Virus record (IMG/VR): IMGVR_UViG_3300028198_000202
Location: 1 to 22,314 of that record
Reading direction: 5' to 3' (one strand)
DNA length: 22,314 bases
DNA from: a virus
A program made the position numbers and the translations under genes. Shown here in pieces: positions 52 through 19,749 of the stretch (position 1 is the stretch's first letter; the number at the start of each line of letters is the position of its first letter). The notes beneath the pieces are model-generated. The model searched no databases. It saw nothing but the letters and a program-made list of their open reading frames with translations, and was not told the DNA's origin.

Positions 52-2450
52 TTAGAGATTTAAATAAGATATTTGAACTTTGGAAAGATAAAGTTGGTTC
101 TAAAAGAACGCCTAATCCTAAGAGTGCCGAACATCAATACCAATTAAGAGAAATTTTGAATGACTTTAATTGGGATGAAGAAGTTATAACTGAATTGTTA
201 TATAATTTATCGGAAGCAAAAGGTAAGGTTTATTTGAAAGGAAAAAGTGCACCACCAGGAGCAGAAGTTCAAACTGGACCCCGAGGTGGACAATATTATA
301 TAGGTGATCCAGATACAGGAGAACCTGAAAAACCAAGTGCTAAAAAACCTAAACCTAAAAAACTTACAAAGACTCAACAGGCTGAAAGAGATAGAATAGA
401 TGCACTTAAAATTGATAAAAAACTTAATGATGCAGAAACTCCACAAGAAGAAGGTAAAGTTCTTGATGAAATAGTAGAAAATGAACATCAAGAAATATTA
501 GGTGGAAACTATGGGCCAGGAGGTGGAGCAGCAAGTTATGGTGAAATGAATTATTCGGAGGCTACTAATGGATTTGCAAATGGTGAACCTACACCTTTAG
601 GAGTAACACCTTCAAAACCAACACCAAAACCAGAACATAAAGAAAGATACAATCAAGGAAATCAGAAGAAAAAAAGAATTGCTTATGCACAAGAACTTGG
701 TATAGTTCCTTATAATGATGATGATGAAAAACAACGAGAAAAGGTTGTAAATGAGCTGGCCCGTAGAGAAACTTGGGTTGATGGACAAATGGAAAAACAT
801 CAGGGTACTAAAGTAAAAGACCAACATTTTAAGTCTAAAAAAGACGAGGAATCACAGAGAGAATGGTTAAGAGTTGGATTTGATGGTGGTCGTTCAACTA
901 TGGAAGATTTACAGAATGATCCTGATTATGGTGGATTAAGTGATAATCCTGAACACCCTAAACCAAAGTCAATGATTATGTCTAAGGCAAATCAAGAAAT
1001 GGTTAAAGGTTTATTGGAGAAAAAATTAAAGGCTTGTGAATTTAAAGAAACTAAAAAGGCAAAGAAGAAGTGTGAAACTCATTATAAAGAACAATTAGAA
1101 AATTTTGAACATGGACTTGAAGATCACGATACGGGAACGGTTTATTATGATAAAGATGGAAATTTAAGATTTTTAAATACTTCTAACAAGAAAAGTAAGT
1201 CTATGAAAGACCCACATAATAATTCTACAGCAGAAACAAGAATACCTACTGTAATAGCTGCTATGGGAGAGATAGCTGATAGTGGGGATTATCCAAATAT
1301 GGATGTAGAGAAAGTTGCTAAGAAAGTAAATGATGCACAAGAAACTGCAACAAAAATGTCTGTAAATGCATCAAAAAATGTTATGTTGGGAAATGATAAA
1401 GACGGAAATGCATCAAAAACACCAATAACTACAACCCAAGGAGATTCATCAGGAGAGGGATCAGATTCTGGAGGACTTGGGGTTGTGGCAAAAAGATTAC
1501 CAGCACAAAAGGCATATCAAAACGAACCTGCATATTTTGAAGCCGCAAAGAAACATAAAAAAACACAGGCTAAGTTAGAAGAACTTTATCCTGATACTCC
1601 CAAGGAAGATAAATGGTCTGATGAACAAGCATTAGTTGCAATTATGGAACTTAATAAAAGTGGAAATGGAAGTTGGAAACCACACGGTAAATTTATTAAT
1701 AAAATGGGGCAAATGTATAATCAGGTAAATGATAGATTTAATGAGTTATCTCCACCAAAAACTGAAGAACAAGCATATGAACAGATATCAAAAGAAAGTG
1801 AAATTGAAGATGATGATGGTAACATGGTCCCAGTTTATACACCCGATGAACTTAAAGAGATTAAAGAAAACGATAATTTAAAAGAAGCTGGTAAATTAAA
1901 TGAAAATTATAAGAGGGCGATGGCAAACGCACACGAAGAAGTTGTTAGTGGAGCAAAAGACTCAGATGAAGAATATTGGAAAGAAAATGGCCCCGCACCA
2001 GTTAATGAGATTACAGGGGAACCTGAAAATGGCCCCCATGTTAGAGGTTATGTAAAATCTTGGATGGCAGGAATGCATTGGGATAAATATATAGATAATT
2101 TAGATGGTAAGAAAAATATTCAAATTGGTGGTATAAATTGTAAACCAGAAGATTTTAGAAAATGTCTTGCAGACCAAGCTGGTATAGATGAAGAGCCAGA
2201 TCCTAAACCAGATACGGAGTGGAGAGAAAAATTACAAGAGCATTTAGAAAAGAATATACAAATAGATGCTGATTCTAACGCTGTTAATTTAAGGGGGAAA
2301 GATGGAAATGATGTTCATGAACTTGGAGAGGATACTTGGAGAAGTGCTGGTGATTCTAAAAAGATAGCTGGTGGTATTGGTGATGATATGATAGAATGTA
2401 TTAAAAAGAGTGTTAGTGAACGAAAGGCTATCCAGAGGAAACCTAAATAA
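48..2450 (+). CDS. Large lysine/glutamate-rich phage protein, function unknown
   Basis: This is an 800-aa hydrophilic protein with no signal peptide or membrane segment. The first ~60 residues look helical. Residues 69-96 hold a Pro/Gly-rich segment with the phrase GAEVQTGPRGGQYY; similar GPRGG-YY phrases occur as linkers in other phage proteins, including some head-associated ones. A charged, low-complexity stretch follows (about 96-230), and the rest is mostly helical with many Asn, Asp, Lys and Gly and an acidic Asp/Glu-rich zone around 590-620. No enzyme motif was recognised. It is coupled to its neighbours on both sides (ATGA at 48, TAATG at 2448-2452). Size, composition and position next to another uncharacterised gene would suit a virion or internal head protein, but that is inference. 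Confidence 0.85.
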   Translation: MIRDLNKIFELWKDKVGSKRTPNPKSAEHQYQLREILNDFNWDEEVITELLYNLSEAKGKVYLKGKSAPPGAEVQTGPRGGQYYIGDPDTGEPEKPSAKKPKPKKLTKTQQAERDRIDALKIDKKLNDAETPQEEGKVLDEIVENEHQEILGGNYGPGGGAASYGEMNYSEATNGFANGEPTPLGVTPSKPTPKPEHKERYNQGNQKKKRIAYAQELGIVPYNDDDEKQREKVVNELARRETWVDGQMEKHQGTKVKDQHFKSKKDEESQREWLRVGFDGGRSTMEDLQNDPDYGGLSDNPEHPKPKSMIMSKANQEMVKGLLEKKLKACEFKETKKAKKKCETHYKEQLENFEHGLEDHDTGTVYYDKDGNLRFLNTSNKKSKSMKDPHNNSTAETRIPTVIAAMGEIADSGDYPNMDVEKVAKKVNDAQETATKMSVNASKNVMLGNDKDGNASKTPITTTQGDSSGEGSDSGGLGVVAKRLPAQKAYQNEPAYFEAAKKHKKTQAKLEELYPDTPKEDKWSDEQALVAIMELNKSGNGSWKPHGKFINKMGQMYNQVNDRFNELSPPKTEEQAYEQISKESEIEDDDGNMVPVYTPDELKEIKENDNLKEAGKLNENYKRAMANAHEEVVSGAKDSDEEYWKENGPAPVNEITGEPENGPHVRGYVKSWMAGMHWDKYIDNLDGKKNIQIGGINCKPEDFRKCLADQAGIDEEPDPKPDTEWREKLQEHLEKNIQIDADSNAVNLRGKDGNDVHELGEDTWRSAGDSKKIAGGIGDDMIECIKKSVSERKAIQRKPK

Positions 2451-3340
2451 TGATCAAACTAAAAGACTTACTAATGGAAGATTGGATTGATGATAAGTGG
2501 TATCCTGCCCATACGAGAAAAACATTAGATTGGGTTCTTAATCAAAAAACTATTCCCATTTATCCAAAGTCAATGGAAAGAATAATTGGTAAAATACCAA
2601 TAACTTCTTTTCATGTAACAACTCTCCATCATTTAGATAATGTAAAAAGTTTACTTGGTAGTAAAAAATCTATGTCAACTTTTACTCGCGCCGGTAAAGA
2701 TTCTCAATTGGCTAAAGGAAAAGGTATCCAAACCGAAGGTGGAGTTATATTTTGGTTAGAAGGAACTTTATTGGCAAGAAAATATATGGATATGCAAAGT
2801 GAACCCGATAAAACTGGTCGTAGATGGATATCTTCAACAATAGTTTTTGATGATCCTATGCTGGTAAAATCAGCCGCTAAAAGAAAGAAGATACCTGACC
2901 GTGAAGCGTGGAGAGATTTTGAATGGGAAACAAAAGATAAAATGCAGGAAAAATTTGGTGGTGGTGCAGATAATATCAAAGAATATGAAAAGGAAGTTAA
3001 AGAAATATTAAATAAAAGAGCATCTGAAGTAATTGCTGACTATATTGACTTGACAAATAAGTTGTTGAAAAAACATAAAAAGTTAGTAAAGAAAAATCTT
3101 TCAACACCAGGCAAGAAAGGTTCTGTTTGGTGGAACGAAATTTTGATATATGGTGCAAAGATTAAAGAAATATTTGTAATGAGTAGAGTTGCTAAGGATT
3201 TGGATTGGAGTGTCACAGAAAGAGGTAAACTTGAAAAACTTGCCTCACTAGCGACTGGTAATGACCCAATCACCGTTGGAACTCCTACAAAATATCGTAA
3301 GTGGTATACAGATAGGAAAGGAGTTTTTGATGATGTTTAG
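2450..3340 (+). CDS. Phage protein of unknown function with an N-terminal HVT...STFT segment
   Basis: This 296-aa protein begins MIKLKDLLMED, a short amphipathic N-terminus of a kind often seen on proteins of large marine T4-like phages. Residues ~50-135 are the most ordered part: SFHVTTLHHLDNVKSLL, then KKSMSTFTRAG, a Gly-rich turn (KGKGIQTEGGVIFWLEG), then DKTGRRWISS. The His-x-Thr followed by Ser-Thr-x-Thr is loosely reminiscent of ADP-ribosyltransferase-like folds, but no clear catalytic Glu was placed, so that is only a guess. The C-terminal half is lysine-rich and helical (~165-225). Its ATG overlaps the previous stop by one base. The protein is likely co-expressed with, and perhaps packaged with, the 800-aa protein. 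Confidence 0.8.
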   Translation: MIKLKDLLMEDWIDDKWYPAHTRKTLDWVLNQKTIPIYPKSMERIIGKIPITSFHVTTLHHLDNVKSLLGSKKSMSTFTRAGKDSQLAKGKGIQTEGGVIFWLEGTLLARKYMDMQSEPDKTGRRWISSTIVFDDPMLVKSAAKRKKIPDREAWRDFEWETKDKMQEKFGGGADNIKEYEKEVKEILNKRASEVIADYIDLTNKLLKKHKKLVKKNLSTPGKKGSVWWNEILIYGAKIKEIFVMSRVAKDLDWSVTERGKLEKLASLATGNDPITVGTPTKYRKWYTDRKGVFDDV

Positions 3341-3358: not shown

Positions 3359-3772
3359 ATGAGAACACAATTACTATGTACATTTACTAATATAAACGAT
3401 TTAAATGAAATAATTGATATTATTATTTCGTGCAATACTATAATGTATGATAAAATATATGTATTTCAGAACGAAGAGGATAAAAATCAATTAGTATGTA
3501 CGTATAATGTAGAATATGATGATGATTTTATGGAAGGTATTCCAGATACAATTTCTCTACATAGAAAAAAACAAACCAATACACTTTATACAATCAATGC
3601 ATTGAATGATATTATACGAGAATTAAATAATGGGGTTTTAGATAAAACGTATATTGTACCTTGGGAGAATTATAGAAATTCAATTTTATTAAATAATGAA
3701 AAGGGTTTAGTGAGAATAAAAACAAAAATTTATAAGATAGTGAATATTACAGAGTGGGGAACAACAGAATAG
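3359..3772 (+). CDS. Conserved-looking hypothetical phage protein (137 aa)
   Basis: Small soluble protein with no recognised domain. It has regular alternation of hydrophobic strands (QLLCTFTNI, KIYVFQN, QLVCTYNVEY) and a central segment HRKKQTNTLYTINALNDIIRELNNG that looks strongly constrained. I have the impression of having seen related sequences in T4-like marine phages but cannot confirm it. A GGAG sits at 3341-3344, rather far from the ATG. The gene ends in TAG at 3770-3772, and the reading frame then continues unbroken, in the same frame, into the GH6 gene that begins 12 nt later (see findings). Confidence 0.8.
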   Translation: MRTQLLCTFTNINDLNEIIDIIISCNTIMYDKIYVFQNEEDKNQLVCTYNVEYDDDFMEGIPDTISLHRKKQTNTLYTINALNDIIRELNNGVLDKTYIVPWENYRNSILLNNEKGLVRIKTKIYKIVNITEWGTTE

Positions 3773-3784
3773 GTTATAGGAATT

Positions 3785-4636
3785 TTGACGGATTTATTTT
3801 ATCCTGATTACATACAACATCAGAACTTAGTTAAGGAACACGAAGATTTGGGAAAAATCTATGCTCAACCGATGGCAATTTGGTTGGGTAGAGATAGATA
3901 CCATAAATTGAAACGTGTGCCTTCAAGAATTCAACGGTTGTTAAAAAGAGCAAAAAATAAAACAGTTGTATTTGTAATATATTCTATTCCGAATAGAGAT
4001 ATTAGTGGAAGACATTCTATGGGTGGAGAAGAAGATGAAGAGTCTTATTTAAAATTTATAAATGAGGTTATTGAAGGGATTGGTAATCATTCACCAATAA
4101 TAATATACGAACCAGATGCTTTATGTGATGGTGTTAAATTAACTAAAAAGAAATCACAACAACGAATAAAGTTGATGCAAACTTCACTTAAATTATTGAC
4201 TAACACAAATGCTAAAATTTATATAGATAGTGGACATCCAAACTGGTTGAAAGTAAGTGAAGTATGTTCGTTACTAAAAAGGTTTAAAAAAATACCATAT
4301 GAGGGATTTATATTGAATTGTTGTAACTTCGTAGATACTGATTCGTGTGTAGAATATGGTACGGAGATAAGTAAATACATTGGTAAGAATTTTGTTATAG
4401 ATACATCAAGAAATGGGTTAGGATATACTGGAAATATATACAATCCAACAAATATAGCAATAGGTGAGTATCCCACATTGGATACAAAAATTAAAAATTG
4501 TGATGGTTTCTTATGGATGAAACCATTAGGAGAGTCGGATGGTAAGGTTAATGGTACGCCTAAGGCAGGCCGATTCAGTTTAAAATATGCTTTAAAAATC
4601 ATTGAAAATAGTAAAAAAATAAATGTATTTAAGTAA
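3785..4636 (+). CDS. Glycoside hydrolase family 6 (cellulase/beta-1,4-glucanase-like) domain protein
   Basis: GH6 enzymes cleave beta-1,4-glucosidic bonds with inversion, acting as endoglucanases or cellobiohydrolases. The signatures appear here in the correct order: QPMAIWLG (28-35); FVIYSIPNRD (63-72) with substrate-site Tyr66 and Asp72; IIIYEPDAL (105-113) with the general acid Asp111; IYIDSGHPNWL (145-155); GFILNCCNF (174-182); FVIDTSRNG (203-211); and LWMKPLGESDG (243-253) with Asp252. By family alignment, Asp72, Asp111 and Asp252 match the three catalytic aspartates of Thermobifida/Trichoderma Cel6A. At 283 aa it is a minimal catalytic domain with no signal peptide, linker or cellulose-binding module. 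The TTG start at 3785 follows AGG (3778-3780) by 4 nt; the first ATG is codon 30, inside the conserved core. The likely target is a cellulose-like or other beta-glucan on the host or in its biofilm. Export could be by lysis or by virion incorporation (inference). Confidence 0.93.
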   Translation: MTDLFYPDYIQHQNLVKEHEDLGKIYAQPMAIWLGRDRYHKLKRVPSRIQRLLKRAKNKTVVFVIYSIPNRDISGRHSMGGEEDEESYLKFINEVIEGIGNHSPIIIYEPDALCDGVKLTKKKSQQRIKLMQTSLKLLTNTNAKIYIDSGHPNWLKVSEVCSLLKRFKKIPYEGFILNCCNFVDTDSCVEYGTEISKYIGKNFVIDTSRNGLGYTGNIYNPTNIAIGEYPTLDTKIKNCDGFLWMKPLGESDGKVNGTPKAGRFSLKYALKIIENSKKINVFK

Positions 4637-4660
4637 TATATATGATATTTATATGTGAAT

Positions 4661-4689
4661 ATGGTTACTTCGTTATTACGAATTACCAT
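4661..4689 (+). promoter_or_regulatory. Imperfect hairpin in the leader of the gp32-like gene
   Basis: ATGGT (4661-4665) pairs with ACCAT (4685-4689), and TTCGT (4669-4673) pairs with ACGAA (4678-4682) around a TATT loop, with a small bulge or mismatch between the two stems. Downstream is ~35 nt of A/U-rich, structure-poor RNA ending in a strong AGGAG (4725-4729), 8 nt before the ATG. In T4, gene 32 mRNA has a structured element followed by an unstructured A/U-rich leader through which gp32 represses its own translation. The same arrangement here suggests, but does not prove, autogenous control. Confidence 0.4.
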
Positions 4690-4737
4690 TGATAAATACA
4701 AAATAATAAATAAAACATACATATAGGAGATTAACAA

Positions 4738-5499
4738 ATGGACTTAGATAAAGTCAAGCGACGTTTAAATCAGTTACAAACATCAACACAAAGAACTTCA
4801 AATCTTTGGAAACCACAACCAGGAACACAACAAATTAGATTAGTACCTTATAAATTCAATAAGGATAATCCGTTCATTGAATTGTTTTTCCATTATGATC
4901 TAGGAGGCAAATCCCATTTATCCCCAATTAGTTTTGGTCGTCCCGACCCCGTTGAGGAGTTCGCACAGAAATTAAAGGCATCAGGTAATCGTGATGATTA
5001 TCGACTTGGTAAAAAACTCGAAGCAAAAATGAGAACTTTTGCACCAGTGATTGTTCGTGGTGAAGAATCACAAGGTACAAAGTTTTGGGGCTTCGGTAAA
5101 ACAGTTTATCAAGAAATACTCTCTGTCATCTCAGACCCAGATTACGGTGATATTACAGACCCAGTAAGTGGTCGTGATATTACAGTTGAATTTAAGACTG
5201 CAGAAGAAACAGGAGCATCATTCCCATCTACCGCAATCCGCGTTAAACCAATACAGACACCAATAAGTGAAGATAAGAATATTCTTGAAAAGGTAGCAGA
5301 TACCCAGAAGGATATTACTGAAATTTATCAGGAAAAGACTTATGATGAACTTACGGAAATTCTGAATAATTGGTTAGAAGGACGAGAAGATGATCCAGCA
5401 GAAAACACTACAAAGTCAGTAACTACGGCACAGTCTGTAGAATCTGCTAAGAGTGTAGAGAATGTTTCAGAGGCCTTTAACGAACTTTTTGATAAGTAA
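4738..5499 (+). CDS. 32: Single-stranded DNA-binding protein, T4 gp32-like
   Basis: This 253-aa protein would coat single-stranded DNA at the fork and during recombination. The basic N-terminus (KVKRRLNQLQTSTQRTS) resembles the Lys/Arg-Ser/Thr region that gives gp32 its cooperativity. The core (residues ~20-160) follows the gp32-type OB-fold pattern: LWKPQPGTQQIRLVPYK, PFIELFFHYDLGG, SFGRPDPVEEFA, then KFWGFGKTVYQEILSVISDPDYGDITD. The zinc-binding cysteines of T4 gp32 are not visible, as in some marine relatives. The C-terminal third is acidic and ends ...EAFNELFDK, like the acidic tail that contacts partner proteins. A strong AGGAG site 8 nt upstream fits high expression. It sits directly before uvsX, its functional partner. 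Confidence 0.9.
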   Translation: MDLDKVKRRLNQLQTSTQRTSNLWKPQPGTQQIRLVPYKFNKDNPFIELFFHYDLGGKSHLSPISFGRPDPVEEFAQKLKASGNRDDYRLGKKLEAKMRTFAPVIVRGEESQGTKFWGFGKTVYQEILSVISDPDYGDITDPVSGRDITVEFKTAEETGASFPSTAIRVKPIQTPISEDKNILEKVADTQKDITEIYQEKTYDELTEILNNWLEGREDDPAENTTKSVTTAQSVESAKSVENVSEAFNELFDK

Positions 5500-5516: not shown

Positions 5517-6614
5517 ATGTCAGTTAGAGACGAATTGGCAAATGTATTAGCCGATAGTTTAAACAAACAATTCAAGGATATGAAAGTAGCATATTTCTTG
5601 GACGGGTCTGATACAACACCCACAGATATTAAAGAATTTATATCAACAGGTTCGACTATGTTGGACTTGGCAATTGCTAATAAACCAAATGGTGGTATTG
5701 CGGTAGGCCGTATTACTGAAATTAATGGTTTAGAATCAAGTGGTAAATCTTTAATCGGAGCACACATACTTGCAGAAACCCAAAAGAAAGGCGGAGTCGC
5801 TGTTTATATAGATACAGAGAATGCCGTTAGTGAGGAGTTTTTGAAAGTATTAGGAATAGATACATCACAGTTACTTTACTTACAATTACAAACTGTAGAA
5901 GAAATTTTCCAGGCAATCGAGGAGATTGTTCTTAAGGTGAGAGAGGCTGAAAAGGATAGACTGGTTACAATATTAGTTGATAGTTTGGCTGCTGCTTCCA
6001 CACAAGTAGAGATAGACGCAGATTTCGAGAAAGACGGTTGGGCAACTTCCAAAGCGATTATTATATCAAAAGCTATGAGAAAGATTACCCAGATGATTGG
6101 TCGTCAAAGAATAGCACTTGTCTTTACAAATCAACTACGAGCGAAACTTGGAGTAATGTTCGGAGATCCTTGGACAACTTCAGGTGGGAAAGCTCTTCCT
6201 TTTCACGCTTCTACTCGAATTCGATTAAAGAATAAAGGTAGAATAACAGACACCAAGAAAAATGTATTGGGAATGACAATACTGGCACAAGTTGTTAAGA
6301 ATAGACTTGGGCCACCTTTAAGACACGCCGAATTTCCACTATATTTTGAAAGTGGAATTGATGATGTGGGTTCTTGGTTAGAAGTAATGAAAAAACATAA
6401 GTTGGTAAAGTCTGCAGGAGCTTGGTATACATATACCGATGTTGCAGGTGAAGAATATAAATTTCAATCTAAAGATTTTCTTAAAATATTAGAAGAAAAC
6501 TCTTTGAAGGATGAGGTTTATGATAGAATTTGTGATAAAGTAATTCTTAAGTATGATATAAAAGATATGGATGAATCTGAACTCGTGAAAGAAGAAGTAG
6601 AGGGAGATGAATAA
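5517..6614 (+). CDS. uvsX: UvsX/RecA-family recombinase
   Basis: ATP-dependent strand-exchange protein for recombination-dependent replication and repair. Walker A is GLESSGKS at 71-78. The likely ATP-activating Glu101 lies in YIDTENA. Walker B is TILVDS at ~151-156. The L2 DNA-binding region is TNQLRAKLGVMFGDPWTTSGGKALPFH at ~204-230. The length of 365 aa is normal for T4 UvsX-type proteins (about 390), with an acidic C-terminal tail (SELVKEEVEGDE). GGAG at ~5508-5511 supports the ATG at 5517. It overlaps the next gene by 8 nt (6607-6614), so the two are translationally coupled. Confidence 0.96.
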   Translation: MSVRDELANVLADSLNKQFKDMKVAYFLDGSDTTPTDIKEFISTGSTMLDLAIANKPNGGIAVGRITEINGLESSGKSLIGAHILAETQKKGGVAVYIDTENAVSEEFLKVLGIDTSQLLYLQLQTVEEIFQAIEEIVLKVREAEKDRLVTILVDSLAAASTQVEIDADFEKDGWATSKAIIISKAMRKITQMIGRQRIALVFTNQLRAKLGVMFGDPWTTSGGKALPFHASTRIRLKNKGRITDTKKNVLGMTILAQVVKNRLGPPLRHAEFPLYFESGIDDVGSWLEVMKKHKLVKSAGAWYTYTDVAGEEYKFQSKDFLKILEENSLKDEVYDRICDKVILKYDIKDMDESELVKEEVEGDE

Positions 6615-7845: not shown

Positions 7846-8916
7846 ATGCGTGTAAATTATGAAGTATTACAGAATTTTGTAGACATAGATGATTTAGAAT
7901 TAAATTATCACAGAGTTACAAATGATATAAATTCTATTGATATAGAGGACGGTATTGAATGGATTTTCAAATACTATAGAGAAAAGGGATTTCCACATTA
8001 TACTGTACGAGAAGAAGAAAAAAATTCACATATAAATTCATTGAGAAAATTTGATTCGGATAGTATTTTTATTGATAATCAAATACAACAAACTATGCAT
8101 GGTTTGAGATTGGCTTGGAATTATTTTCCTCATTGGGTAGATGTTCAATGTGGAAATTCTAAAATGCCACCTATTGGATATTTCAATGATGATGATTTAC
8201 TCAAAACAATAATTAGAAAAACTTGGAAGTATGAAGAAAAACACGGTAATAATAAATTTACAGAAAATCGTTTTAGACAGAGTTTAAAATTATATCAAGG
8301 TTCTCAAGCAGTGAGTAATTTTAGACCAAGTGCAGCAAAAGTTATTTATGAGAAGTTTGGTGGTGATGGAGTGATACGAGATATGAGTTGTGGTTGGGGT
8401 GGACGATTGATTGGATTTTTAGCATCAAAAAACACTAAACATTATATCGGTACAGAACCATCAACAAAAACATATGACGGGTTGTTAAAAATGAAAAAAG
8501 AATTTTCATATTTGGGAAAACAAATAGATATATATAAACAAGGAAGTGAAGACTTTATTCCAGAAAAAGAATCAATCGATTTATGTTTCACTTCTCCACC
8601 TTATTTCGATACCGAAAAATATTCGGATGAATCAACACAAAGTTTTAAAAAATTCCCATCCGAGAACGAGTGGGTTAATGGTTTTTTAAAAAAGACCATA
8701 AAAAATTGTTATTACGGATTGAAGAAAAATGGTTATATGTTAATTAACATTGCAAATACACCAAAATATAAATTCATAGAGAAAGAAACAGTAAATATAT
8801 CAAGTGAGATTGGGTTTATAAAAGAACCTACTGTAGATTTGATATTATCAAGTGTGGCTGGTAAAGGAATAAAAACTGAACCAGTATTTGTATTCAGAAA
8901 GGGCAATAATGGATAG
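7846..8916 (+). CDS. DNA amino-methyltransferase-like protein (SPPY family), paralogue of 18541
   Basis: Class I SAM-dependent methyltransferase fold. A glycine-rich motif I, DMSCGWGGRLIGFLAS (179-194), is followed by acidic TEPS (SAM ribose binding) and the catalytic motif IV FTSPPYF with Ser250-Pro-Pro-Tyr253. SPPY motifs are typical of exocyclic amino methyltransferases (N4-cytosine or N6-adenine). Motif I precedes motif IV, unlike in the beta-class enzyme immediately downstream. The ~170-residue N-terminal region (including HGLRLAWNYFPHWVD and FRQSLKLYQGSQAVSNFRPSAAK) is probably for target recognition. The 402-aa protein at 18541 has the same architecture. The gene overlaps the next methyltransferase by 8 nt. 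Whether the target is DNA or another molecule is not settled by the sequence. Confidence 0.82.
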   Translation: MRVNYEVLQNFVDIDDLELNYHRVTNDINSIDIEDGIEWIFKYYREKGFPHYTVREEEKNSHINSLRKFDSDSIFIDNQIQQTMHGLRLAWNYFPHWVDVQCGNSKMPPIGYFNDDDLLKTIIRKTWKYEEKHGNNKFTENRFRQSLKLYQGSQAVSNFRPSAAKVIYEKFGGDGVIRDMSCGWGGRLIGFLASKNTKHYIGTEPSTKTYDGLLKMKKEFSYLGKQIDIYKQGSEDFIPEKESIDLCFTSPPYFDTEKYSDESTQSFKKFPSENEWVNGFLKKTIKNCYYGLKKNGYMLINIANTPKYKFIEKETVNISSEIGFIKEPTVDLILSSVAGKGIKTEPVFVFRKGNNG

Positions 8917-10450
8917 TAAACTAATCAACGGAAATAGTTTAGAAGTTTTAAAAGATTACGATGATAATTCAGTAGATTTACTTTGCACAGACCCACCATA
9001 CGGATACGGATTTATGGGTAAAGATTGGGATCAGACACTTCCACCACGAAAGATTTTCGAGGAATGTTTAAGAGTATTGAAACCAGGTTCATTAGCATTT
9101 GTAATGAGTGCACCAAGAAGTGATGTTCAATACAGAATGGCACAGATGTTAGAGGAAGTTGGATTTAATGTGAGTTTCACACCAATATATTGGACATATG
9201 CTACAGGATTTCCAAAGGCTATGAATATTGGAAAAGCAGTTGATAAGAGATTGGGTGCTGAACGAGAGGTTATTGAAACAAAAAAATATACAAGGAAAAA
9301 TGACGCCAGTTTCGCCTACACAGATGGTAATAATAGGTCTGAACCATTTAAAGCTGGTGAACATGAATATGATATTACAGAACCATCATCAGACAAAGCA
9401 AAAGAGCTTGATGGTTCATATGCAGGTTATCAACCAAAACCAGCAGTAGAAGTGGTGATTGTGGCAATGAAACCATTAGAACAAAAAGGTTATTTAGACC
9501 AAGCACTTGATAATCAAAAGGGAGTAACTTGGTTAGATGATTGTAGAATACCATTTGCAGGTATGAGAGATAAAGAACAGTTTGATAAAGATAATGTTGC
9601 TGCTATGATGAACTTTGATGGGAAATATGAAAAAGGTGAAGGTAAGATGTATGAAGGTGGATGGGAAAAACCAAATAGAGAAGGATTATCAAGAGGAATA
9701 CAAGCATCAAGAAAAACCACAAAGAGAAAACCACGAGAAGAAAATACGGTATTTAAGACAAGTGGATTTAAGAGTGAAGATAATGATACAGCAGATGCAT
9801 CACCACTTGGTAGATTTGCCGCTAACCTATTAGTAAGTGATAAAGTATTAGATACAGGTAAGAAAACTAAATCAACTGGTGGCCGAGCATATCAAAACAC
9901 AAATGAGATGTTTAGTGGTGGTTGGGCATATGATGAAGAAGGAACTGGAGAGAATCCAGGTAAAGGAGATGAGGGAGATTTTAGTAGATATTATAGTTTA
10001 GATGAGTGGTGGAAAAGTAGATTGGTAAAATTAAATCCAGAAGTTCAACGGACATTTCCATTTTTAGTTGTTCCCAAGGCGAGTAAGTCAGAAAAAAATA
10101 TGGGATTGGATGATTTTGAAAAACAACAAAAGATATATAATGGTCAAAGTCCAGAATCAAGTAAAGATATGAAAGGTGTAGATAAGAAATTCACTACACA
10201 ACCAACTAAAAACAACCACCCAACGGTAAAACCACTCCAACTATTCAGTTATTTAGTAACACTTGGGAGTAGAAAAGATGATGTAGTGTTAGACCCGTTT
10301 ATGGGTAGTGGCACCACACCAATATCTTGTGTGACTTTAGATAGAAAATACTTGGGGATAGAGAGAGAAAAAGATTATTTTGAAATTGCCGAAGCACGAG
10401 TAAAGAAGGCAATCAATCCAGCAAACTTAGTAGAACACGACTTTTTTTAA
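8909..10450 (+). CDS. Beta-class DNA N6-adenine/N4-cytosine methyltransferase
   Basis: Methylates an exocyclic amino group in DNA. Motif IV, LLCTDPPYGYGF, lies near the N-terminus (Asp28-Pro-Pro-Tyr31). The SAM-binding region is at the C-terminus: NNHPTVKPLQLFSYL, then VVLDPFMGSGTT (motif I, ~459-470) and YLGIEREKDYF. Motif IV before motif I defines the beta class (CcrM/type III Mod group), and DPPY favours N6-adenine. The long middle region (~90-430) is the target-recognition part and holds an unusually Gly/Lys-rich stretch. I place the start at ATG 8909, with AAAGGG 5 nt upstream. A TTG at 8888 would add seven residues inside the previous gene. No restriction partner is present, so it is probably a solitary protective methylase. 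Confidence 0.92.
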   Translation: MDSKLINGNSLEVLKDYDDNSVDLLCTDPPYGYGFMGKDWDQTLPPRKIFEECLRVLKPGSLAFVMSAPRSDVQYRMAQMLEEVGFNVSFTPIYWTYATGFPKAMNIGKAVDKRLGAEREVIETKKYTRKNDASFAYTDGNNRSEPFKAGEHEYDITEPSSDKAKELDGSYAGYQPKPAVEVVIVAMKPLEQKGYLDQALDNQKGVTWLDDCRIPFAGMRDKEQFDKDNVAAMMNFDGKYEKGEGKMYEGGWEKPNREGLSRGIQASRKTTKRKPREENTVFKTSGFKSEDNDTADASPLGRFAANLLVSDKVLDTGKKTKSTGGRAYQNTNEMFSGGWAYDEEGTGENPGKGDEGDFSRYYSLDEWWKSRLVKLNPEVQRTFPFLVVPKASKSEKNMGLDDFEKQQKIYNGQSPESSKDMKGVDKKFTTQPTKNNHPTVKPLQLFSYLVTLGSRKDDVVLDPFMGSGTTPISCVTLDRKYLGIEREKDYFEIAEARVKKAINPANLVEHDFF

Positions 10451-10451
10451 T

Positions 10452-11855
10452 ATGGCAGAAACATTAACACATTTCGGACATTCATTTCAAAAGAAAATAA
10501 TAGTATTATTATTATTCAATCGTAGATTTTTGCAAACAATTAATGATATATTGGAACCAGATTATTTTGATTCCGATGCAGATAAATGGTTGGTAAATTG
10601 TATAAAGAAGTATTATGAGAAGTATAAAGTAGAACCAACATTAGAAGCAATAAAAATACAAATAGATGAACTTAGTTCAGAAGTTTTAAAGAAATCAGTA
10701 GTGGATAATTTAAGAGAGGTATTTCAACTTAGAGAGGCAACTGATTTAAATTTTGTAGAAGAAAAGTCCATAGAGTTTTGTAAAAATCAAACATTAAAAA
10801 CTGCAATAATGCAATCTGTAGATTTATTAGAACGTCACGATTATGATGGTATAAAAACTACAATTGATGCGGCAATGAAGGCAGGAACTACAAAAGATTT
10901 AGGACATGATTATATAGAGGGATTGGAAGAAAGATTAACACATTCAACACGAGATACTGTTGCTACAGGTTGGGATATTATAGATGAAGTGATGGATGGG
11001 GGTTTAGGAAAAGGTGAGTTAGGAGTTATTGTAGCACCAGCTGGTATTGGTAAAACTTGGTGTTTACAGAGATTGGTATCAGAGACTATAAAAAGAGGTA
11101 ATACCGCAATACATTACACATTAGAATTAAACCAATCTTATGTTGGATTAAGATATGATACTATATTTTCAGGAATACCCACAGGAGAAATTAAGTTTCA
11201 ACAAGAAACTGTTAAGAAGGCATTAGAAAAAGTAAAGGGAAAATTATTAATAAAATATTTTCCAACACGGTCAGCATCAGTACAGACATTAAATGCACAT
11301 TTAAAACAAGTAGAGTTAAGTGGATTTAAACCAGATATCGTTATAGTAGATTATGCAGATATTATGAGAGATATTAGTGGTGGTAAAGAGTTAAGACACC
11401 AATTAGGAAACATTTATGAAGACCTACGAGGATTAGCGGGAGAGATGGATATACCAATATGGACAGCTTCACAAGCTAATCGTTCAGCACTTGAAGAAGA
11501 TGTGATTGATGCCAGTAAAGTTGCAGAGGCGTATAGTAAAGTTATGACTTCAGATTTTGTAGTTAGTGTTAGTAGAAAGATTGAGGATAAGGTTGGAAAT
11601 ACGGCAAGATTCCACGTGATTAAAAATAGGTTTGGAGTGGATGGAATTACTTACCCAGCAACTATGAATACTAACATTGGTAAGATAGATGTACATAGAC
11701 CATCATCATTAAGTGGACAAGAGGCATCAAAAAAGATGGTAAATTCAGAAGATTTTTTGAAACAAACATTGAGAAATAAATATAAAGATTATAAGAGTAG
11801 TGAAGAAGCGGGAGAAGAAAAAACTTCTGACAAAAACTTTACTGATTTTGGTTAA
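10452..11855 (+). CDS. 41: Replicative DNA helicase, T4 gp41 / DnaB-like
   Basis: Hexameric fork helicase of the RecA-fold DnaB family. The N-terminal ~150 residues are helical, as expected for the oligomerisation/primase-contact domain (HFGHSFQKKIIVLLLFNRRFL, EPDYFDSDADKWLV). The motor domain shows Walker A VAPAGIGKT (194-202), motif H1a HYTLELNQSY with Glu225, Walker B IVIVDYADIM and a sensor-like WTASQANRSAL. At 467 aa it matches T4 gp41 (475 aa). The ATG at 10452 begins one base after the methyltransferase stop. The charged tail (EEAGEEKTSDKN) may be a protein-interaction site. No gp61-like primase was seen in this window. Confidence 0.94.
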   Translation: MAETLTHFGHSFQKKIIVLLLFNRRFLQTINDILEPDYFDSDADKWLVNCIKKYYEKYKVEPTLEAIKIQIDELSSEVLKKSVVDNLREVFQLREATDLNFVEEKSIEFCKNQTLKTAIMQSVDLLERHDYDGIKTTIDAAMKAGTTKDLGHDYIEGLEERLTHSTRDTVATGWDIIDEVMDGGLGKGELGVIVAPAGIGKTWCLQRLVSETIKRGNTAIHYTLELNQSYVGLRYDTIFSGIPTGEIKFQQETVKKALEKVKGKLLIKYFPTRSASVQTLNAHLKQVELSGFKPDIVIVDYADIMRDISGGKELRHQLGNIYEDLRGLAGEMDIPIWTASQANRSALEEDVIDASKVAEAYSKVMTSDFVVSVSRKIEDKVGNTARFHVIKNRFGVDGITYPATMNTNIGKIDVHRPSSLSGQEASKKMVNSEDFLKQTLRNKYKDYKSSEEAGEEKTSDKNFTDFG

Positions 11856-11862
11856 TTTTAAA

Positions 11863-11885
11863 ATATTCGGGATAGAACCGAATAT
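11863..11885 (+). other. Perfect 8-bp inverted repeat after the helicase gene
   Basis: ATATTCGG (11863-11870) and CCGAATAT (11878-11885) form a perfect stem around a 7-nt GATAGAA loop, beginning 7 nt after the helicase stop. The following sequence is A/T-rich but has no clean run of U, so it is a weak candidate terminator. It could equally stabilise or process the mRNA, or be a protein-binding palindrome. It lies in the longest non-coding stretch of the window (11856-11963), where nothing else convincing is present. Confidence 0.4.
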
Positions 11886-11963
11886 ATATAATATTTATTT
11901 ATGGTTGGGAAAGTAAATTGAAAATAAAAAAGATTTTCTCTCTACTTTTATTAAGGATTTGGT

Positions 11964-12104
11964 ATGGCTAGACCTCAAAAATATTTTACTAAAAAAGAGC
12001 AAATTGAAGCTCGCAGGGCACGACAACGGAAATATTATTATAGGAATAGAGATATAATTCTTAATAAGAAGATAAAGAAATATTGGGCAAATAAATATAA
12101 ATAG
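11964..12104 (+). CDS. Very small basic protein (46 aa), paralogue of the protein at 7655
   Basis: A short open frame, ATG 11964 to TAG 12102-12104, preceded by AAGGA at 11953-11957 with 6-nt spacing. It encodes MARPQKYFTKKEQIEARRARQ and continues with KYYYRNRDIILNKKIKKYWANKYK. Over the first 32 residues it matches the 62-aa protein at 7655 at 14 positions with no gaps, which shows it is a real gene. It is extremely Lys/Arg/Tyr-rich, which fits nucleic-acid binding. The function is unknown. It could be a remnant of a duplicated gene or of a homing-endonuclease-associated element, but no catalytic residues are visible. Confidence 0.75.
   Translation: MARPQKYFTKKEQIEARRARQRKYYYRNRDIILNKKIKKYWANKYK
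12096..12103 (+). promoter_or_regulatory. Possible T4-like late promoter box (TATAAATA)
   Basis: An exact TATAAATA octamer, the T4 late-promoter -10 consensus, ends 22 nt before the GTG of the ribonucleotide reductase gene. It overlaps the last codons of the 46-aa gene (Tyr-Lys-stop) and the genome is AT-rich, so chance is a real possibility. A late promoter before a nucleotide-metabolism gene would also be unusual. Confidence 0.2.
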
Positions 12105-12125
12105 TTTTTAGAAGGGAAGTTACGA

Positions 12126-14114
12126 GTGGAATTTAAGTTATCGGAAAATTTTATAAATAAGTACAAGAGAAAAAAACCACCATTTGGTTTTAATGGTTTA
12201 GGTGAATTGGTGTATATGAGAACCTATTCTCGTATCAAAGAAGATGGTAAAAATGAACGTTGGTGGGAAACAGTTCGTAGGGTTGTAGAAGGTACTTACT
12301 CGATGCAAAAAAATTGGATTGATCAACATCAACTTGGTTGGAATGCTTGGCAAGCTCAAGCATCAGCTCAAGAAATGTATGAGAGAATTTTCAATATGAA
12401 ATTTTTACCACCAGGGCGTGGTTTGTGGGCGATGGGAACTCCAATCACCGAAGAAAAGAAGTTATATGCGGCATTAAATAATTGTGCCTTTGTTTCTACT
12501 TCTACAATAAAAGACGATTACTCGAAACCATTTTGTTTTTTAATGGATGCATCAATGTTAGGTGTTGGAGTTGGTTTTGATACAAAGGGGGCTGGTCATG
12601 TACATATAAAGGGCCCTAACAACGACAGACAAGAAGAAGTTTATGAGATTCCCGATACACGAGAGGGATGGGTTGAAAGTTTGAGATTGTTGTTAGAGTC
12701 ATTTTTTCATGGAACGGCCCCTGTTACATTTGATTATACGAAAGTTAGAGATGAGGGAGAACCAATCAAAGGGTTTGGTGGAGTTTCAAGTGGCCACGAA
12801 CCTTTAAAAGAAGTTCACGAAAGTATTAGAAATGTATTGAATAATAATTTAAATAATCCAATTACCGTAACTACAATTGTGGATATAATGAACCTAATTG
12901 GTAAATGTGTCGTAGCAGGGAATGTAAGACGAACGGCGGAGATTGTGTTCGGTGATCCCTATGATGACGAGTATTTGGATTTAAAAAATTATAAAGTTAA
13001 TCCAGACAGAGAACAATATGGGTGGACTTCAAACAATAGTATTTTTGCAGAACTAGGTATGGATTATACTGATGTGTGTAAGAGAATTAATGATAATGGC
13101 GAACCAGGATTCGCATGGTTAGACAATATGAGAAAATTTTCTCGTATGCAAAATGGTGGAGATAATAAAGACCATAGAGTAGCGGGTGGAAATCCTTGTC
13201 TTGAACAATCACTTGAATCATATGAGTTATGTTGTTTAGTAGAGACGTTTCCAAACAATCACGATTCATTAGAGGACTATCAAAGAACACTTAAATATGC
13301 TTATCTGTATGCCAAAACCGTAACATTAGGTAAAACTCATTGGCCCGAAACCAATAGAGTTATGTTAAGAAATAGACGGATTGGATGTAGTGTAAGTGGT
13401 GTTGCACAATTCATTACAAAACACGGAATGGAAGAATTAAGAACTTGGTTAGAAAACGGATACGACACTATACAAGAATGGGATAAACAATATAGTGATT
13501 GGTTCGCAGTTCCAAAATCTATCAAGACCACGAGTGTTAAACCAAGTGGAACAGTTTCCTTATTAGTAGGGGCAACTCCTGGAATGCACTATCCAGAAAG
13601 TAGATTTTATATTCGAAGAATAAGAGCATCTAAACATTCAGAATTATTAGAACCGTTGAAACGGGCAGGTTATACGGTAGAACCAGCGTTTGGTTCAGAA
13701 GATAGTACCGTTGTTATAGAAGTACCAGTTGATGTTGGAGAAGGTATAAGAACTGCAAGTGATTTATCAATATGGGAACAATTCAGTTTAGCCGCATTCT
13801 TACAACGACATTGGGCAGATAACCAAGTTAGTTGTACGGCAACATTCGACCCCGAAACAGAAGCAGATGAACTACCACACGTGTTGAATTATTTTCAATA
13901 TAGATTAAAAGGTATATCATTATTACCACGACATGAGTTAGGTGCTTATAAACAAATGCCATATGAAGCAATTGATGAGAAAACTTATAATAAAAAATTA
14001 AAAAAATTAGGTAGGTTGAGTTTTGTAGGTATTGAAGGTGAGGAAGCGGAAATAGACAAATTTTGTAATAACGATGTTTGTGAAATTCCAGGAGAAATAA
14101 TTTATGAGTCATAA
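12126..14114 (+). CDS. nrdJ: Adenosylcobalamin-dependent (class II) ribonucleotide reductase
   Basis: Reduces ribonucleotides to deoxyribonucleotides using a B12-generated thiyl radical, so it needs neither oxygen nor a NrdB partner. The sequence resembles the monomeric Lactobacillus-type enzyme. Key residues align with constant spacing: Cys120 (NNCAFVST), Cys358 and Glu360 (GGNPCLEQ, radical Cys and acid) and Cys369 (ELCCLVE), equivalent to Cys119/408/410/419 in the L. leichmannii enzyme. The C-terminal redox pair Cys647-x4-Cys652 (FCNNDVCEI) has the spacing of its Cys731/736. Other signatures are FLPPGRGLWAMGT, GVGVGFDTKG, AGNVRRTAE and KPSGTVSLL. Its 662 aa is shorter than the ~739 of that enzyme. 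The GTG start follows GAAGGGAAG. The gene overlaps the next one by 11 nt. T4 itself uses class I NrdAB. Confidence 0.95.
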   Translation: MEFKLSENFINKYKRKKPPFGFNGLGELVYMRTYSRIKEDGKNERWWETVRRVVEGTYSMQKNWIDQHQLGWNAWQAQASAQEMYERIFNMKFLPPGRGLWAMGTPITEEKKLYAALNNCAFVSTSTIKDDYSKPFCFLMDASMLGVGVGFDTKGAGHVHIKGPNNDRQEEVYEIPDTREGWVESLRLLLESFFHGTAPVTFDYTKVRDEGEPIKGFGGVSSGHEPLKEVHESIRNVLNNNLNNPITVTTIVDIMNLIGKCVVAGNVRRTAEIVFGDPYDDEYLDLKNYKVNPDREQYGWTSNNSIFAELGMDYTDVCKRINDNGEPGFAWLDNMRKFSRMQNGGDNKDHRVAGGNPCLEQSLESYELCCLVETFPNNHDSLEDYQRTLKYAYLYAKTVTLGKTHWPETNRVMLRNRRIGCSVSGVAQFITKHGMEELRTWLENGYDTIQEWDKQYSDWFAVPKSIKTTSVKPSGTVSLLVGATPGMHYPESRFYIRRIRASKHSELLEPLKRAGYTVEPAFGSEDSTVVIEVPVDVGEGIRTASDLSIWEQFSLAAFLQRHWADNQVSCTATFDPETEADELPHVLNYFQYRLKGISLLPRHELGAYKQMPYEAIDEKTYNKKLKKLGRLSFVGIEGEEAEIDKFCNNDVCEIPGEIIYES

Positions 14115-15093
14115 ATTAGAATATTTATGGTTAGATGGATGTACACCAACTCAAATTAGGTATAAGACAAAAGTTGTAAAAGAACCATTAAAAGTACCTG
14201 AATGGGGATTCGATCCCATTTGGGGATTTGATGGTAGTTCTACTGAACAGGCAGATGGTGGTAGTTCTGATTGTCAATTAAAACCAGTAAGGGTTTACCC
14301 AAATCCATTAGAAGAAGATAGTTCTATCGTATTGTGTGAAGTCTATAATGTAGATGACACACCACACAAATCTAATACAAGAAGATTATTAGAAGAAACT
14401 ATACCTGGTGGTATTGATGAATGGGTTGGTTTTGAACAAGAATACACATTATTTAAAGATGCTATACCATTAGGGTGGCCTGAAGTTGGAGAACCTAATC
14501 CACAAGGAGATTATTATTGTGGTAGAAATATCGGTGAAAATATTTCAAGAGAACATTTAAATGCTTGTATCAAAGCTGGTATTAGTATTTGTGGAACTAA
14601 CGCAGAGGTAATGTTAGGACAATGGGAATATCAGATTGGTGCAGGTGGTTCTATTCATATGAGTGATGATTTGTGGGTAGCCCGTTGGTTGATGGAAAGA
14701 ATTTGTGAGAAACACGGATTATCAGTATCCTTACATCCCAAACCAGTAAGTGGTGATTGGAATGGTGCAGGTTGTCATACTAATTTCTCTACAAAACATA
14801 TGAGGGAAGATGGTGGTTATGATAAGATAATAGAAGCCTGTGAAAAACTATCAAAAAATCCACAAGAACATATTGATGTGTATGGTCAAGATAATGACAA
14901 AAGACTTACAGGAGAACATGAAACTTGTTCTATTGAAGAATTTCGTTATGGTGTTTCAGATAGAGGAGCATCTATCCGTATTCCGTGGCAGGTGGAAAGG
15001 GATGGTAAAGGTTATTTAGAAGATAGACGACCATCTTCAAATTGTGATCCATATGTGGTTTCACAAAAATTAATGGAAACTATTTGCAAATAA
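14104..15093 (+). CDS. glnII: Type II glutamine synthetase (GlnII-like)
   Basis: Condenses glutamate and ammonia to glutamine using ATP. It is full length (329 aa, like rhizobial GlnII) with every GSII landmark: HKLEYLWLDG (3-12), WGFDGSSTEQADG (40-52), metal-binding EQEYTL (Glu111, Glu113), GTNAEVMLGQWEYQ (Glu168, Glu175), DWNGAGCHTNFST with His225, RLTGEHET (267-273), DRGASIRIP (286-294) and GYLEDRRPSSNCDPY with Glu306. The PW after RIP replaces the Arg seen in animal enzymes, but bacterial GlnII also varies here, so it should be active. It overlaps nrdJ by 11 nt and is therefore co-translated with it. A role in supplying amide nitrogen for purine and CTP synthesis, or in resetting host nitrogen control, is inference. 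Confidence 0.95.
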   Translation: MSHKLEYLWLDGCTPTQIRYKTKVVKEPLKVPEWGFDPIWGFDGSSTEQADGGSSDCQLKPVRVYPNPLEEDSSIVLCEVYNVDDTPHKSNTRRLLEETIPGGIDEWVGFEQEYTLFKDAIPLGWPEVGEPNPQGDYYCGRNIGENISREHLNACIKAGISICGTNAEVMLGQWEYQIGAGGSIHMSDDLWVARWLMERICEKHGLSVSLHPKPVSGDWNGAGCHTNFSTKHMREDGGYDKIIEACEKLSKNPQEHIDVYGQDNDKRLTGEHETCSIEEFRYGVSDRGASIRIPWQVERDGKGYLEDRRPSSNCDPYVVSQKLMETICK

Positions 15094-18540: not shown

Positions 18541-19749
18541 ATGTATTTAGATTACTTTGATAAGTTTAAAAATATGGAGCCCTACCTTAAAATAGATAAA
18601 AAGGAATGGGCTTACATAAAAGAAACTTACGATAGACCAGATATTCAAGAAACTCTCGTAGAGATTTTGAAGGATTATGAGTTACCTACACAAGAGTTGA
18701 CCAAAAAAGATGCTTACAAAGATTTTATGAAGTTAAAGGGAATACAATGGCCTGATTACTTAAAAGAATCTGAATGGTACGCAAGGTCAGAATATAAATG
18801 GCCGTTAACTAAGAAAATTATACGAAGGATAAATAGAGGAAATGACGCTAGTAATTATTTCCAACAGTATAATAGATGGTCGGTAGATGGAACTATTTCT
18901 CCAGGTCCAGTTAGGACTTGGGGAAATCCAAAGTTTATGTATACTTTGTTAGGTTCATTATTCACACTTGAGGTAGAGAAGGTAGATAGGGGAACATTAA
19001 GGTCTTGTATTGGACTTCGTAAGTATATATGTTCTCAATTCAAACCAAATGTAGCAAAATCAATTTATGATATGTTTAAGGCAGAGACCATACTTGATTT
19101 TTCTATGGGATGGGGTGATAGACTGGCTGGATTTTACGCGAGTGATTATGGGAAACATTATGTTGGTATTGACCCACGTAAAGAGAACCATTCAATATAT
19201 GAAGAACAATCAAAGTTTTACAACAAACATTTAGGATTTTTCGAACAAGAGAGAAAGTCTGAATTTCATTGTTCTCCCGCTGAGGAGTTTGATTTTTCAC
19301 AATATGATAATTATTTTGATTTGGTATTCACTTCACCACCATATTTTAATGTAGAGCGTTATAGTTATGATGATACACAAAGTTGGGTTAGATATAAAGA
19401 TATAGATGATTGGAATACAGAGTTTTTACAGAAAACGTTGAATAATTTATGGAGAAGTATTAAAACTGGTGGATATTTATTAGTGAATATAAGTGATGTA
19501 AATGCATCGAGTAAAGGTAGGAAGGCAAAGGGTTGGCTACCTATTTGTGATCCTATGAACGACTTTTTAGATACATTTAAAGATAGTGAATATAAGGGTT
19601 GTGTTGGTTATGAAATGGCAAAAAGACCTAATTCAATAGGAGCTGGAACTGCTAAAGTAACAGAAGAAACTAATAGAAAACCAGAATATATCTTACCAGT
19701 AAAAGAAGGATTATTTGCTGAACCAATTTGGACATGGAAAAAAATATGA
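18541..19749 (+). CDS. DNA amino-methyltransferase-like protein (SPPY family), paralogue of 7846
   Basis: A 402-aa SAM-dependent methyltransferase with motif I DFSMGWGDRLAGFYAS (186-201), the SAM-ribose acid in YVGIDPRKEN, and motif IV FTSPPYF (Ser265-Pro-Pro-Tyr268), followed by VERYSYDDTQSW. The 356-aa protein at 7846 shows the same order and equivalents of the flanking phrases (CGWGGRLIGF, TSPPYFDTEKYSDESTQSF), so the two are diverged paralogues. The C-terminus here is longer (GWLPICDPMNDF ... PIWTWKK). The first 150 residues differ, which suggests a different target site. It is inserted between the clamp and clamp-loader genes, and its TGA overlaps the clamp loader's ATG (ATGA). Confidence 0.82.
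   Translation: MYLDYFDKFKNMEPYLKIDKKEWAYIKETYDRPDIQETLVEILKDYELPTQELTKKDAYKDFMKLKGIQWPDYLKESEWYARSEYKWPLTKKIIRRINRGNDASNYFQQYNRWSVDGTISPGPVRTWGNPKFMYTLLGSLFTLEVEKVDRGTLRSCIGLRKYICSQFKPNVAKSIYDMFKAETILDFSMGWGDRLAGFYASDYGKHYVGIDPRKENHSIYEEQSKFYNKHLGFFEQERKSEFHCSPAEEFDFSQYDNYFDLVFTSPPYFNVERYSYDDTQSWVRYKDIDDWNTEFLQKTLNNLWRSIKTGGYLLVNISDVNASSKGRKAKGWLPICDPMNDFLDTFKDSEYKGCVGYEMAKRPNSIGAGTAKVTEETNRKPEYILPVKEGLFAEPIWTWKKI

Follow-up and report, generated by a model that had tools for sequence, protein, structure and literature searches.

The open reading frame (ORF) directly downstream of p137 in the window encodes a GH6 enzyme, as confirmed by its profile match, its predicted fold and its aligned catalytic aspartates. 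By the window we mean the whole stretch of DNA analysed, 22,314 nucleotides of IMG/VR record IMGVR_UViG_3300028198_000202, from a virus of ocean bacteria. The protein belongs to a clade found only in phages, whose members carry no signal-like N-terminus. Its most likely use, to which we give about an even chance, is as a soluble β-1,4-glucanase that would be made in the cytoplasm, be released at lysis and cut a cellulose-like matrix.

Identification of the GH6 gene

A model that saw only the sequence had originally predicted a GH6 hydrolase here and proposed an HMM search against the family. We observed a significant match of the ORF to the Pfam profile Glyco_hydro_6 (PF01341; E 4.5e-39, 135.5 bits, compared with a curated cut-off of 27), and its best sequence match in the PDB was M. 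tuberculosis Cel6 (E 2e-35). No model of PHROGs or NCBIfam matched the protein. A TAGGAA run stands directly 5' of the TTG start, and this start context was the same in 17 of 17 close relatives, all of them near-identical contigs. Pairs of close relatives gave dN/dS values of 0.13–0.35 for the gene, on which purifying selection acts. The ORF is not a chance one, because the Pfam and PDB matches are joined by this dN/dS range and by a fold Z of 36.7 (see below); a chance ORF or an artefact was excluded by profile, fold, conservation and selection. The coordinates are collected in Table 1.

Table 1. Positions in the window of the GH6 gene, its neighbours and its conserved blocks
Feature	Position	Strand	Remarks
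p137	3359..3772	+	Conserved phage gene; directly 5' of GH6 in the window's phage family, in which it occurs with or without GH6
GH6 gene	3785..4636	+	283 aa, TTG start; lone catalytic domain without signal peptide
YSIPNRD..S..GG block	3980..4024	+	Residues 66–80; Tyr66, D72 and Ser78 of the mobile active-site loop
EPDA block	4109..4120	+	Residues 109–112; D111 is the expected general acid
YIDSGH block	4220..4237	+	Residues 146–151; contains D148
DTSRNG block	4400..4417	+	Residues 206–211
KPLGESDG block	4520..4543	+	Residues 246–253; D252 is the putative base
GH6–gp32 intergenic region	4637..4737	+	
gp32-like single-strand DNA-binding protein	4738..5499	+	PF08804, E 1.7e-12; phrog_1192
UvsX-like recombinase	5517..6614	+	phrog_97, E 4e-71

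Catalytic site and predicted fold

The catalytic landmarks lie where they had been predicted, with D72 in YSIPNRD, D111 in EPDA, D252 in KPLGESDG and DTSRNG at residues 206–211, and the blocks follow one another in the order YSIPNRD, EPDA, YIDSGH, DTSRNG and KPLGESDG. The fourth GH6 aspartate, D148 (in YIDSGH), is also present, together with Tyr66 and Ser78. We take D72, D111, D148 and D252 to be the counterparts of D79, D117, D156 and D265 of T. fusca Cel6A, and Tyr66 and Ser78 those of its Y73 and S85. Throughout the phage clade the four aspartates and Tyr66 were each found in 53 of 53 sequences, and Ser78 in 46 of 53. Across 54 aligned GH6 sequences, the EPDA block, D148, D206, R209, G211, K246, S251 and D252 were invariant.

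An AlphaFold2 model, for which the input was an alignment of 54 sequences (the window protein and the retrieved loci), reached a pLDDT of 92.8 and a pTM of 0.92. Its confidence was lowest at residues 71–80, the loop following D72, the equivalent of which is mobile in known GH6 structures. The model predicts the distorted barrel of the Cel6 type, and the top structural matches were GH6. Foldseek placed M. tuberculosis Cel6 first (TM 0.89, E 6e-27), and VIA-align superimposed the model on the same enzyme with a Z of 36.7 and an rmsd of 1.9 over 274 residues; T. fusca Cel6A ranked next, and then a GH6 endoglucanase from compost. The fold of the model is therefore like that of Thermobifida Cel6A, the comparison that the original prediction had proposed. 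Of the outcomes that the prediction had named as refuting it, none was observed: the HMM match was strong, the fold was of the Cel6A kind and the aspartates aligned. When the fold was searched against one viral structure library, nothing GH6-like turned up there (best TM 0.40).

The matched endoglucanases have 278–300 residues in their structures, and the cellobiohydrolases ranking below them run to about 360 or more; the additional residues of cellobiohydrolases make up tunnel loops. As the phage protein is short like the endoglucanases and without this extra length, it is by length of the endoglucanase type. The structures that it resembles most are endoglucanases of comparable size (286–293 aa) and not cellobiohydrolases of the tunnel type.

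A phage-only GH6 clade

A profile search of IMG/VR with GH6 retrieved 74 loci; p137, the gene next to it, served as a second query and led to further GH6 carriers at 50–60% identity. We built a GH6 tree (LG+C20) of 99 dereplicated rows, in which the bacterial sampling consisted of the best 80 matches and a few plasmid records. In this tree the 23 dereplicated marine-type phage rows, all IMG/VR contigs, formed one group with support of 100/100, and none of the sampled bacterial rows fell inside it. The nearest relatives of the window GH6 are phage genes, with 60% identity to that of locus L200. All clade members are single-domain proteins of about 272–291 aa, and extra domains were found in none of them. 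The window gene is thus not an isolated capture, as it is a member of a phage-specific clade that occupies two genomic settings. A recent transfer from an actinobacterial donor is not supported, given this close kinship with phage genes and a phage clade that is closed with 100/100 support.

Recent bacterial cargo or a binning artefact, without any role specific to phages, is a very improbable explanation of the gene. Some GH6 records called viral do look bacterial (L086–L088 and MT836874), but the window GH6 stands among T4-like replication genes, occupies one recurrent site across many contigs, belongs to a phage-only clade and is under purifying selection. Two of the records filed as phage, L020 (MT836874.1) and L087, are bacterial-looking by their neighbouring genes.

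Genomic setting

The window is part of a T4-like phage. Its gp32, UvsX, exonuclease, gp41 and gp43 genes were identified by profile, which bears out the T4-like setting originally proposed, and a relative of 131.8 kb has a gp23 capsid match (E 1e-75). The gp44- and gp45-like genes were assigned from sequence and gene order only. The lineage of the window is related to Microcystis phage Mel-JY01 and Flavobacterium phage immuto, and in its capsid protein to Rhodothermus phage RM378.

In the family of the window, the gene order is p137, GH6, gp32 and uvsX, with other genes sometimes placed between GH6 and gp32. In the second setting GH6 mostly follows peptide deformylase, and in that lineage UvsX comes nearest (67%) to those of Sinorhizobium phage Phosso and Agrobacterium phage Atu_ph07.

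p137 has at least 589 relatives in IMG/VR. Among 80 p137 loci, GH6 was the next gene in 23 and did not adjoin p137 in the retrieved flanks of the other 57; many loci devoid of GH6 run straight to gp32 after about 105–115 bases. In L200 and L202, a poly-A/TTGTTTTT stretch after GH6 resembles, by eye, one that directly follows p137 in relatives devoid of GH6. Pairwise alignment scores for the bases after GH6 against those after p137 were mostly within the shuffled range, L230 excepted. The presence and absence of GH6 on a tree of p137 and gp32 required at least three changes. This pattern is compatible with an old gene that has a fixed location and has undergone several losses, or with a small number of transfers.

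Several other genes of these contigs were recorded. L067 has a phage Ro60/TROVE RNA-binding protein (11501–13108; PF05731, E 4e-36) between GH6 and gp32. At the left end of the window, the proteins encoded at 48–2450 (800 aa) and 2450–3340 (296 aa) matched nothing in Pfam, PHROGs or NCBIfam, and relatives of the 800-aa protein sit before p137 elsewhere in this phage family. Three DNA methyltransferase-like genes lie at 7846–10450 and 18541–19749; one methyltransferase-like protein, of 520 aa, matches N6_N4_Mtase, and its region differs among relatives. A GlnII-type glutamine synthetase at 14104–15093 (NCBIfam NF041605, E 2e-135; 451 bits, below the cut-off of 500) is directly preceded by an adenosylcobalamin ribonucleotide reductase at 12126–14114, and the 131.8 kb relative has a similar pair.

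Loss of export and disulfide features

Bacteria and fungi normally secrete their GH6 enzymes. We found a signal-like hydrophobic N-terminus in none of 52 clade members. Among the comparison rows, mainly bacterial, 78 of 84 had a hydrophobic stretch before the domain; as these frames run from stop to stop, a few of the stretches may lie ahead of the real start codon. The first pair of cysteine positions (73 and 118 in the window protein) was occupied by cysteine in 0 of 53 phage rows at either position, as against 82 of 83 in bacteria. At the second pair, cysteine stood at position 219 in 23 and at position 255 in 7 of the 53 phage rows. Judging by T. fusca Cel6A, 73/118 and 219/255 are presumably disulfide pairs. 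All four GH6 cysteines are missing from the window protein. Its description as signal-less and stripped holds, and throughout the clade the hydrophobic N-terminus is missing and the single domain is the rule.

As the signal peptide and the disulfide cysteines have been lost, folding of the enzyme probably takes place within the infected cell. Considered jointly with release at lysis, we would put at evens an adaptation of the clade to synthesis in the bacterial cytoplasm, by way of a single domain and the loss of export and disulfide features.

Proposed function

On the sequence and the model, a catalytically competent GH6 endo-β-1,4-glucanase would be the product of the gene; together with release at lysis, this seems to us about as probable as its opposite. 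The enzyme would accumulate as a soluble protein in the cytoplasm of the infected cell and be set free when the cell lyses. It could then cut cellulose or another β-1,4-glucan that surrounds the host or its aggregate, which might help progeny virions to exit and to reach new cells. Phage S6 offers a precedent for cellulose breakdown (PMC9544554). Counted against release at lysis are the absence of a carbohydrate-binding module from the phage GH6 and the position of the gene outside any lysis cassette; the 131.8 kb relative has its GH108 endolysin gene ~83 kb away.

The upstream sequences were also inspected for promoter motifs. The T4-type late box TATAAATA was not found just upstream of GH6, and TATTTATAGT, another repeated motif, stands before a number of structural genes in the 131.8 kb relative without preceding GH6. 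This relative (L178–L182) has TATTTATAGT eight times on the + strand, seven of them intergenic, and once on the − strand. The intergenic copies lie 23–75 bases 5' of genes for the tail sheath, an adjacent small protein that is probably the tail tube, a reductase and gp43. TATTTATAGT, the reverse complement of the T4 late box, is a candidate phage promoter.

The lost export features fit a cytoplasmic role equally well as they fit release at lysis. An intracellular auxiliary enzyme is possible, if rather unlikely; it would act on imported cello-oligosaccharides in host sugar catabolism, or on nascent β-glucan, so that the synthesis of surface polysaccharide is altered or stopped. The missing signal peptide and disulfides agree with this role, as do the neighbours of the gene, which are replication genes or peptide deformylase and not virion or lysis genes. 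The 131.8 kb relative is also rich in sugar genes (glucosamine-6-phosphate isomerase family, PIG-L, GDP-mannose dehydratase, NeuB and a cytidylyltransferase). However, these resemble surface-glycan synthesis more than glucan catabolism; such surface-sugar genes imply that host-surface glycans matter to these phages. Counting further against an intracellular enzyme, GH6 of the endo type works best on polymers, and we know of no cytoplasmic pool of β-1,4-glucan. We regard as doubtful the wider proposal that the phage-specific branch would be the first GH6 to act within the bacterial cytoplasm, where it would use nascent or imported β-glucan as substrate and remodel the host surface or metabolism in the course of infection.

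Action from the virion, which the original prediction had allowed for, is weakly supported, as the gene lies outside the tail module and its product has neither an anchor or extra domain nor the disulfides of secreted GH6. A depolymerase attached to the tail or packaged in the particle would clear a β-glucan layer at entry, as many phage depolymerases do, and Gilgamesh-type actinophages have their GH6 among tail genes, behind ~150 extra N-terminal residues. The marine clade, however, has no such extra domain and no tail-module location, and the actinophage GH6 sits in a different part of the tree; we consider this explanation distinctly unlikely. A tail-borne depolymerase was rejected on the neighbours of the gene (p137, gp32 and uvsX, or peptide deformylase) and the lack of an anchor domain.

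Comparison with known systems

M. tuberculosis Cel6 (1up0/1uoz) and T. fusca Cel6A (1tml/2bod) have the fold, the catalytic aspartates and the length in common with the phage GH6 (Z 34.6–36.7, rmsd 1.7–2.1 over 262–275 residues, 27–32% identity). Unlike these enzymes, the phage protein has no signal peptide and 0 of 4 GH6 cysteines at the aligned positions. Gp72 of Streptomyces phage Gilgamesh and related GH6 of actinophages and prophages (L089–L097) are, like the window GH6, phage-encoded and have the catalytic aspartates. They differ from the marine clade in their tail-gene neighbours, their extra N-terminal region and a second cysteine pair that is largely retained, and the tree places them apart from it.

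Viral GH6 genes annotated as auxiliary genes for carbon degradation have been described from Mariana Trench sediment metagenomes (PMC8725595) and from Aral Sea soil metagenomes (PMC9948696). These come from bulk annotation and are likened to the window clade by description only; the accessible portions of the two reports contain neither a tree of a phage-only clade nor a mention of cysteine loss. The original statement that no characterised example was known stands in part: in the open-access subset of the literature we found no biochemically characterised phage GH6, but Gilgamesh gp72 and the viral GH6 of the metagenomes are precedents for the gene itself. What appears to be new is a T4-like, phage-only and export-less GH6 clade with a fixed genomic site.

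The occurrence of this branch in two unrelated T4-like lineages suggests that β-1,4-glucan, as a barrier or as a resource, is worth a dedicated gene to ocean phages. It raises the question whether marine hosts make a cellulose-like matrix that phages remove at lysis. The clade could also be a source of cellulases that need no disulfides and fold in the cytoplasm of E. coli.

Erwinia phage S6 needs bacterial cellulose as its first receptor and carries GH5 and GH48 enzymes (PMC9544554). Its gp094 (GH48) and gp095 (GH5) are aimed at bacterial cellulose; unlike the window GH6, they belong to other GH families, are multi-domain and have been proposed to reside on the particle (PMC9544554).
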